Shown here piece after piece: positions 20,856-22,900 of a stretch of DNA of 64,000 bases (within the stretch, counting starts at the first letter, position 1; every line of letters starts with the position of its first letter). A program made the translations under genes and the position numbers. Source of the stretch: Synechococcus sp. 1G10 (GTDB lineage: Bacteria; Cyanobacteriota; Cyanobacteriia; PCC-6307; Cyanobiaceae); the NCBI RefSeq assembly GCF_002252625.1, contig NZ_NQKW01000006.1, forward strand, positions 1 through 64,000, given 5' to 3'. The notes under the pieces are model-generated. The model saw nothing but the letters and a program-made list of their open reading frames with translations. It was not told the DNA's origin and made no database searches.

Positions 20856-21125
20856 ATGGCCAGCGATCCCCTCACCGAAGCCGTCAGCGAACGGATCTGT
20901 CGCCACATGAACAAAGACCATGGCGAAGCGGTGCTGGCTTATGCCCGCCACTACGGCGGGGCGCAGCAGGCCAGCACCGCCCGCATGCTGCGTGTGAGTC
21001 CCGAAGCGATGGACCTGGAGGTGGATGGCGCCAACCTCTCAGTGCCCTTCGATCACGTGCTCAATGACAGCGAAGACGCCCATCGCACCCTGGTGGCGAT
21101 GCTCAAGGCCTTGCCCGAGTCATGA
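20856..21125 (+). CDS. DUF2470-domain protein
   Basis: From ATG 20856, 89 residues with the DUF2470 pattern: ERICRHMNKDHGEAVLAYAR, a middle ARMLRVSPEAMDLEV and VPFDHVLNDSEDAHRTLVAM. This domain is otherwise found at the C-terminus of haem-binding or pyridoxamine-oxidase-like proteins; a stand-alone role in haem handling is inference. Confidence 0.8.
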   Translation: MASDPLTEAVSERICRHMNKDHGEAVLAYARHYGGAQQASTARMLRVSPEAMDLEVDGANLSVPFDHVLNDSEDAHRTLVAMLKALPES

Positions 21126-21175
21126 GCTGGGAACACTGAACGGCAACGTTGCACTCCTCCTAGGAGATCGCCGCC

Positions 21176-21952
21176 ATGGTCCAGGCCCTGTTGAGGGGAT
21201 GCCTCGAGCTGATCACCCAGGCCACCTGTCCGCTCTGCGGCCGAGCGGCCGAGACTGATGGAGGCAGGAGGCGTGCACAATCGCAGCCTTGCCAGGTCTG
21301 CCGCGAATCGCTGGATCTCGAGGCCCAGTCGGGATTGTGTGGTCTTGAGCCCATGCCCTGGTGGGCCCTGGGCTCCTATCAAGGTGCGCTGCGCAGCCTG
21401 CTGCTGCGCCAGCGGCGCAAGCCCAGCAACCAGGCGATCCCCTGCCTGGCGAGTTCCCTGGCCGCAACCCTGCCGGCACCGCTTCGGGAGTTGAGCGTCG
21501 TGGCGATCCCCAGCTGGAAACAACGGGCCAACCCCCTGCCACTCCTGATCTGTCAGGGGCTGGGCCTGCCCTGCCTGGCTCCCCTGGAGCGCAGCCGCGC
21601 CACGCTGGGGCAGCACCACCTCAACCGCCGGCTGCGGGCGCTCAACCAGGAAGGTGCCTTCCGGGTCGTCCCAGACGGAATCTCCAGCAGCCGACGTTCC
21701 AGGCAGGGTCTGCTGCTGGTGGATGACATTCTCACCACAGGAGCCACGGCCATGGCCGCCGCCGCCGCCCTTGAAGAGGCCGGTTACCCGGTGATGGGGC
21801 TGCTCTGCCTAGCCCGGACGCCTGCTCCAGGCCGTGATCTAAGATCCAGAGGTGCTGCCAAGCGGCCTGCCGGGATAGCTCAGTTGGTAGAGCAGGCGAC
21901 TGAAAATCGCCGTGTCCCCAGTTCAAATCTGGGTCCTGGCACTCTTTTTTGA
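21176..21952 (+). CDS. comF: ComF-family phosphoribosyltransferase-like protein
   Basis: ComF proteins function in DNA uptake during competence. The protein has an N-terminal zinc-type cluster (TCPLCGRAAE and QPCQVCRESL) and a C-terminal phosphoribosyltransferase motif (GLLLVDDILTTGATAMAAAA). Recognisable sequence ends near GLLCLARTPAPG (about 21830), yet the frame has no stop until TGA 21950-21952, so the last 35 or so codons run across the whole tRNA-Phe gene and end in its T-rich trailer. Confidence 0.85.
   Translation: MVQALLRGCLELITQATCPLCGRAAETDGGRRRAQSQPCQVCRESLDLEAQSGLCGLEPMPWWALGSYQGALRSLLLRQRRKPSNQAIPCLASSLAATLPAPLRELSVVAIPSWKQRANPLPLLICQGLGLPCLAPLERSRATLGQHHLNRRLRALNQEGAFRVVPDGISSSRRSRQGLLLVDDILTTGATAMAAAAALEEAGYPVMGLLCLARTPAPGRDLRSRGAAKRPAGIAQLVEQATENRRVPSSNLGPGTLF
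21869..21941 (+). tRNA. tRNA-Phe(GAA)
   Basis: A 73-nt cloverleaf: acceptor GCCGGGA with TCCTGGC (one G-T pair), D-arm TAGCTCAGTTGGTAGAGCA, anticodon loop CTGAAAA with GAA, and T-arm CCCAGTTCAAATCTGGG. CCA is not encoded. A run of six T follows at 21945-21950. The gene lies entirely inside the 3' end of the comF reading frame. In marine Synechococcus the PBS gene region is reported to lie beside a tRNA-Phe, as here. Confidence 0.96.
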
Positions 21953-22020
21953 AGCCCTTGTTGAAGGCTGTAGCCCATCACTTCGGTGGGCGCCCCTCCA
22001 AGCTGCCGTGCTCCGAAGCA

Positions 22021-22257
22021 ATGAGAACCCCTCCCGAGCAACCAGCCAACCAACAGTTCAACAATGCGGACAGCTACGGAATCGCCTTCGATGAGGCCTG
22101 GGGACGGATCGGCAGCCTCGATCCAGCTGATTCAGGCGCCCGTGAAGCCGCCCTCCAAGGGGTGATTAGCGGCTTGTGCGATCACCCTTTCGCCCTGAGC
22201 CAACCGGAGCTGGTGCGCCAGGTCGCGGAATTCCGCCTGCGCCTGTTTCAGCGCTGA
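22021..22257 (+). CDS. Conserved hypothetical protein, 78 residues
   Basis: From ATG 22021 the product starts MRTPPEQPANQQFNNADSYG and then has a helical region (FDEAWGRIGSLDPADSGARE, FALSQPELVRQVAEFRLRL). No family is recognised. It stands between tRNA-Phe and cpcT, 37 bp before cpcT, so it may be co-transcribed with the lyase. The frame extends 24 codons upstream into the tRNA trailer, which I judge non-coding. Confidence 0.55.
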   Translation: MRTPPEQPANQQFNNADSYGIAFDEAWGRIGSLDPADSGAREAALQGVISGLCDHPFALSQPELVRQVAEFRLRLFQR

Positions 22258-22294
22258 GGGCGCTGAGGTAGGCCGGCCCCATAGGATTCGCCCC

Positions 22295-22900
22295 ATGACC
22301 AGCTCCCTGACGCGCCTGGTCCGGATGCTGAGCGCTGGGTTCAGCAATCAGGACCAGGCTTTCGAGAACCCACCCCTCTACGCCCACATACTGGTGCGCT
22401 TTCGGCCGCTTCCGCAGCTGGATCCAGGTTCCCTGTTGCTGGAGCAGTCCTACGCCTTCGCACCCGGCCAGCCCTACCGCATTCGGGTGCTGCGTGCCGA
22501 AAGCGTCACAGACGGCAGCCTGCGGATCCATAACCACGCCCTCCACGACGAGCGGCGGTTCTGGGGAGCGGTGGAGGATCCTGAGCGCATGGCGAAGATC
22601 CAAACCGAGGACCTGCGTCTGCTCGAAGGTTGCACCTATGTGGTGCAACAGAAGGGCGAGGCCTTCATCGGGGAGGTCGAACCTGGCTGCCGTTGCCTGG
22701 TGGAACGCAAGGGAGCCACGGCCTACCTCGTGAGCAGCTTCGAAATTGACGGTACGTCGATGCGCACGATCGACAGGGGGCACGACCCCGCCACCCATGA
22801 CCAGCTCTGGGGATCCCTGGCTGGGCCGTTTGAATTCCAGCGCACCGACGACTTCAGCGCTGAGATTCCAATCGCCTGGCTGGAGAGCTGGAGGCCCTGA
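22295..22900 (+). CDS. cpcT: Phycobiliprotein bilin lyase CpcT (CpeT/CpcT family)
   Basis: CpcT attaches phycocyanobilin to Cys-153/155 of the phycocyanin beta subunit. The 201-residue product has the family blocks NQDQAFENPPLYAHILVRFR, LLEQSYAFAPGQPYRIRV, GEVEPGCRCLVERKGATAYL and a C-terminal DRGHDPATHDQLWGSLAGPF. A second member at 34709 sits with phycoerythrin genes, so this copy, close to the cpc genes, is called cpcT. It encodes a soluble beta-barrel (calycin-like) protein. Confidence 0.88.
   Translation: MTSSLTRLVRMLSAGFSNQDQAFENPPLYAHILVRFRPLPQLDPGSLLLEQSYAFAPGQPYRIRVLRAESVTDGSLRIHNHALHDERRFWGAVEDPERMAKIQTEDLRLLEGCTYVVQQKGEAFIGEVEPGCRCLVERKGATAYLVSSFEIDGTSMRTIDRGHDPATHDQLWGSLAGPFEFQRTDDFSAEIPIAWLESWRP

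Follow-up and report, generated by a model that had tools for sequence, protein, structure and literature searches.

In animal mitochondria, the end of a protein gene can overlap the tRNA gene that follows it in the same orientation; such overlaps tend to be short, and polyadenylation often completes the stop codon. The comF gene of Synechococcus sp. 1G10 resembles these arrangements in that its end overlaps the next same-strand tRNA gene, that of tRNA-Phe, but differs from them in that its reading frame passes through the whole of a bacterial tRNA. A second class consists of proteins whose genes overlap tRNAs, which AntiFam took in according to PMC9710616. These entries likewise derive from a same-strand frame that crosses a tRNA and yields a tRNA-derived peptide, whereas the core of comF is under purifying selection and a stop before the tRNA is absent throughout the genus. 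Non-stop messages are described as substrates of trans-translation in PMC3985003. A comF message cut before its stop would similarly stall ribosomes and call for tmRNA; the difference from the known targets is that the hypothetical cleavage of comF would fall to RNase P, with the tRNA as its substrate. Literature searching, with most subscription journals outside its coverage, returned no report of a comF/tRNA-Phe overlap identifiable by title or the start of the abstract, and no paper on tRNA-PheGAA together with Synechococcus. Frames crossing tRNAs are already known to annotators, and the comF/tRNA-Phe case is a further variant of them.

The comF frame and its run through tRNA-Phe

The window analysed here is a stretch of 64,000 nucleotides, to which all coordinates refer. 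The locus contains the following features.

21176-21952, plus strand: comF open reading frame of 258 amino acids, with a C-terminal tail through the tRNA (ORF listing, TIGR00201 match)
21227-21817, plus strand: ComF core, residues 18-214, TIGR00201 positions 1-190 (profile match, pN/pS)
21834-21845, plus strand: conserved element GTGATCTAAGAT within the comF frame, putative tRNA-Phe promoter with -10 hexamer TAAGAT (role proposed from conservation)
21852-21868, plus strand: putative transcribed 5' leader of the tRNA-Phe precursor, containing a hairpin of 5 bp (fold; start placed from spacing only)
21869-21941, plus strand: tRNA-Phe(GAA), 73 nt (ARAGORN, 21869-21942; Rfam tRNA match, 21869-21941)
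21950-21952, plus strand: TGA terminating the comF frame, 8 bases past the tRNA (ORF listing)

In the ORF listing, comF begins with ATG and runs for 258 codons to its first in-frame stop, TGA 21950-21952. The TIGR00201 profile is matched over its full length (positions 1-190 of 190; E 2.6e-12, 47.1 bits against a curated cut-off of 233.55) and ends at residue 214, at about base 21817, after which 44 further codons follow. The phosphoribosyltransferase domain PF00156 is matched over residues 176-218 (E 0.00029, 20.6 bits; cut-off 26.3), and LLLVDDILTTGAT in the same frame is a candidate for the C-terminal phosphoribosyltransferase-type motif. The first base of the tRNA, 21869, is the first position of a comF codon, and the tRNA is translated in frame as AGIAQLVEQATENRRVPSSNLGPG; the comF frame is the sole open one through tRNA-Phe, the other two containing stops. 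The tail of the window's ComF includes the peptides RPAGIAQLVEQATENR and VPSSNLGPGTLF. A sequence-only reading of this DNA had proposed that the frame stays open through the entire tRNA to this TGA, and the ORF listing, ARAGORN and Rfam confirm both the read-through and its coordinates. The length of the open run alone is unremarkable, since a 44-codon stop-free run has a probability of about 0.29 at the local base composition and 4120 of 9124 plus-strand stretches of 132 nt sampled in the window are open.

Residues 228-245 (21857-21910) also give a weak match, below the cut-off, to the Pfam family CSN7_HB_subdom (E 0.0016); as these residues derive from the tRNA, the resemblance is probably fortuitous.

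Stop positions of comF in the genus and the family

A draw of 300 genomes from the family gave comF matches in 268, and the stronger of these, comprising 150 loci from 149 genomes (one represented twice), were classified, while the weaker matches, many from small genomes, were left uncounted. Among these stronger matches, comF has tRNA-Phe after it in the same orientation at 147 of the 150 loci; the three with no tRNA in the retrieved stretch all belong to one genus, g30. The two genes are same-strand neighbours over much of this cyanobacterial family, and the 3' end of comF also serves as the sequence preceding the tRNA. In eight further family genomes, chosen by their tRNA-Phe and seven of them low in G+C, no comF was detected in the roughly 1.6 kb upstream of tRNA-Phe. 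Beyond the family, 30 tRNA-Phe loci of the class's other families, a subset of the matches obtained there, were examined; none had a comF match with E <0.1 within 1.5 kb or less, the lowest E value being 0.44.

In genus g30, comF and tRNA-Phe are separated: 1,674 bases lie between the comF stop and tRNA-Phe in genome G029 (loci L105 and L219), and two further g30 loci are without a tRNA in the retrieved stretch.

The position of the comF stop relative to the tRNA varies among the 147 loci. It precedes the tRNA at 109, lies in the D arm at 22 (TAG at tRNA positions 8-10), falls in the anticodon loop at six (TGA at tRNA positions 33-35) and lies past the tRNA at ten. Two named records, SynAce01 and Cyanobium sp. 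Morenito 9A2, have their stops in the anticodon loop and just upstream of the tRNA, respectively. The frame of comF runs into the conserved element, one of whose three frames contains TGA, another TAA, while the third is stop-free. By hand tally of the 147 loci, comF reads the element in the TGA frame at 73, in the TAA frame at 23 and in the open frame at 47, with four left unassigned; at 69 of the 147, the element's TGA is the comF stop and the spacer to the tRNA is 22 nt long. Among the 47 open-frame loci, 36 enter the tRNA. When the open frame is combined with a 22-nt spacer, comF ends at the D-arm TAG in 22 loci, whereas in eight a TGA earlier in the spacer places the stop before the tRNA and in a ninth the stop lies well upstream; a 24-nt spacer leads to the anticodon-loop TGA (three loci), and a 23-nt spacer to full read-through (ten loci). 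The spacer of the window's genus is 23 nt long, against the usual 22, and with the stop-free frame of the element comF therefore enters the tRNA in its sole open frame. In the stop-free frame, it is mostly the spacer that decides where comF ends.

Read-through was found in nine of nine genomes examined from the genus and in G077, a genome that carries a different genus label, and hence at ten of ten loci of a single comF clade. The distance from core to stop is identical at all ten, the terminal codon being TGA in eight and TAA in two. A direct check confirmed the read-through in eight named records, which probably overlap the ten clade loci; the eight are Synechococcus sp. Cruz-7E5, J7-Johnson, ATX 2A4, WH 5701, RedBA-s, BSA11S and CS-1329 and the metagenome-assembled Cyanobium sp. 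CZS48M. The possibility, raised in the sequence-only reading, that related genomes have the overlap as their usual state holds inside the genus (nine of nine genomes) and fails across the family at large, since comF ends ahead of the tRNA at 109 of the 147 loci. That an assembly error had erased a true comF stop, which the same reading had allowed for, is contradicted by the ten clade loci that share the state. At the nine other loci, the cores of which are 79-93% identical, the frame is likewise open, with stop position and spacer length unchanged, and separately deposited records such as WH 5701 and CS-1329 are among them; nothing was found in favour of an error, which is very improbable.

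Two side observations concern the clade. The locus from G077 (L003) carries the label of genus g37, yet it shares 90-95% identity with the window in comF and the adjoining genes, whereas comF of two other g37 genomes is 53 and 57% identical to the window's; this discordance reflects either a recent transfer or a problem with the label. In addition, nine bases at the end of comF (21819-21827) are the exact complement of 21890-21898 in the D-arm region of tRNA-Phe, a complementarity that, judged by eye, is intact at seven of the ten clade loci and broken at three.

The sequence-only reading had further suggested that the original end of comF may have been lost when the tRNA site, as a boundary of the phycobilisome region, was rearranged. 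In favour of such an event, as an integration or excision, PMC4139726 describes for Baltic picocyanobacteria a repeated segment with a tRNA-Phe gene adjoining the phycobilisome cluster and states that tRNA genes often serve as integration sites. Against it, tRNA-Phe normally comes directly after comF in the loci examined (147 of 150), and at all ten read-through loci the genes on either side, DUF2470 upstream and a small ORF and CpeT downstream, keep their order at near-identical positions. One-base length differences suffice to account for the change, and no rearrangement is needed given the usual order and the unchanged neighbours. On gene order and neighbouring genes, the suggestion is left unsupported and we regard a rearrangement as very improbable.

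The history of the overlap was followed on a comF tree of 150 rows, obtained by a quick search with SH-aLRT support only and with several long branches flagged. The past-tRNA state forms a single group of ten (SH-aLRT 100) and requires one change, and since the ten loci are related they do not represent ten independent cases; between stops before the tRNA and overlaps 15 changes are required, at least eight of them forced by starred branches. Groups g48 and g51, which share a 21-row part of the tree (support 93) with the clade, read the element in the open frame, and the open frame may have arisen before the spacer gained its extra base. The order of the two steps is uncertain, because the same part of the tree includes loci in the TGA frame (g37) and in the TAA frame (g33, g44). 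The read-through looks like a fixed, inherited trait that arose from small frame shifts where comF and the tRNA share DNA.

A conserved element and a putative leader upstream of tRNA-Phe

The element within the end of comF has the consensus GTGATYTAAGAT, which is matched with two mismatches or fewer at 139 of the 147 loci. Among 112 element-selected loci with a 22-nt spacer, five key bases are invariant and G-16 is present in 111, although this invariance is partly built in because the loci were selected by an element search (up to three mismatches). Counts taken at fixed offsets, without an element search, are lower than in the selected set: T-33, G-32, T-28, A-27 and T-23 are all present at 114 of the 147 loci, G-16 at 122, and letters 1, 2 and 6 of TAAGAT at 119, 123 and 122, respectively. 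From their positions, T-28, A-27 and T-23 would correspond to these three letters in a -10 hexamer TAAGAT, and G-16 would be the expected transcription start position of tRNA-Phe.

A consensus scan of 21000-22400 for promoters and terminators gave no hit, sigma-70-like sites included, and no conserved block was seen near -50 in the 112 element-selected loci. With the consensus scan empty and no block near -50, the putative promoter appears to have no -35 box, and the role assigned to it therefore depends on conservation and spacing. A reading of the TG in the element as a classical extended -10 was rejected, as the distance from this TG to TAAGAT is two bases too long for it. Among 30 other tRNA genes of the genome (out of 42 tRNA matches), only that of tRNA-Val comes within two mismatches of the element, the rest having four to six.

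The putative leader, 21852-21868, folds with -5.7 kcal/mol (z -1.54). Of 96 distinct 22-nt spacers, 82 form all five pairs of the hairpin, compared with six or fewer when the position is slid. Such a 5-bp hairpin is common across the family, where it starts at the proposed first transcribed base and ends two bases before tRNA-Phe.

Selection on comF and the possible fate of its transcripts

Over the ten clade loci, pN/pS is 0.30 in the comF core and 0.11 in its last block, whereas it reaches 1.10 over element and spacer and 0.84 over the last eight codons before the tRNA, on few differences. With 0.9 synonymous differences per pair against 2.5 nonsynonymous ones, the test of the tail is weak. 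For codons -16 to -9 of the tail the ratio is 0.37, from 0.7 (synonymous) and 0.6 (nonsynonymous) differences per pair. The core is thus under purifying selection, while over element and spacer none was detected, again on few differences; from this comparison of core and tail, comF appears to be functional, and its tail shows no clear constraint. A spurious ORF would show no coding constraint outside the tRNA, a description that only the tail over element and spacer, taken alone, would fit. The first 72 bases of tRNA-Phe are identical at all ten loci. The codon that ends comF after the tRNA is a stop at all ten as well, though the three codons preceding it vary; selection to end comF at this point could have kept it there, and shared descent can also explain it.

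The view of comF as a decaying pseudogene, whose lost stop would be part of the decay, draws on the absence of a stop that most loci examined possess. It is ruled out by the purifying selection on the core and is also at odds with the unbroken frame at all ten clade loci and the full-length profile match in the window, and decay is accordingly highly improbable.

The arrangement is quite probably a tolerated overlap, in which tRNA-Phe has its own promoter inside the end of comF and the extra residues of ComF are a tolerated tail. Under this model, the tRNA would be transcribed mainly from the promoter within the comF end. At the ten clade loci, the acceptor stem is predicted to form in transcripts that begin near the proposed start (mean pairing 0.97 with 18 nt of upstream sequence). 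Where a comF transcript crosses the tRNA, RNase P cleavage would leave a non-stop comF message, which the tmRNA-SmpB system would be expected to clear. Both components are encoded in the genome with scores above cut-off, namely cyano_tmRNA (RF01851, 287.4 bits) and SmpB (TIGR00086, 163.7 bits). The sequence-only reading had expected translation of comF to compete with processing of the tRNA. Such competition, with a putative non-stop comF mRNA, is possible but not required, and the proposed tRNA promoter within the comF end would reduce its importance.

A rival explanation is functional coupling, in which RNase P would cut comF transcripts that include the tRNA at 21868/21869 and produce a non-stop message, so that trans-translation tags ComF and its output is lowered or regulated by tRNA processing. 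There is no stop before the tRNA at any of the ten clade loci, and the stop lies inside the tRNA at 28 further loci; cleavage would give a non-stop message in all of them, for want of a stop before the tRNA, and the presence of tmRNA and SmpB agrees with the proposal. However, the conserved promoter-like element stands directly upstream of the tRNA, and the tRNA therefore need not derive from comF transcripts; nor can coupling be a family trait, because comF is already terminated ahead of the tRNA at 109 of the 147 loci. We consider coupling unlikely, and the tolerated overlap with a separate tRNA promoter remains the preferred explanation.

The candidate idea that the comF end sequesters the tRNA in long transcripts was dropped, as the effect is not distinguishable from chance when compared with shuffled ends. 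In the clade, mean predicted pairing of the acceptor stem falls to 0.17 with 60 nt of upstream sequence, against 0.54, 0.53 and 0.45 at the 109 stop-before, 22 D-arm and six anticodon loci, respectively, and in a 141-nt stretch that includes the comF end the best structure loses the proper acceptor stem. Among 60 shuffled comF ends, values as low were obtained in 5, 19, 9, 17, 19 and 43 cases at six of the ten clade loci (L001, L004, L006, L008, L010 and L005, respectively) and in 16, 39, 37 and 39 cases at four other loci.

The locus also cautions annotators that this ComF ends in residues that come from a tRNA. A far-reaching version of the coupling idea, which we hold to be quite improbable, would have every full comF transcript in the genus hold the tRNA before its sole stop, with RNase P and trans-translation setting ComF levels and the family providing a natural series of ends. 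The family in any case offers a comparative series in which one gene pair has its stop in a promoter-like element, in the spacer, at two fixed sites in the tRNA or past the tRNA; because this series extends across many species, the cost of having one transcript serve as both mRNA and tRNA would be measurable in cultured strains.
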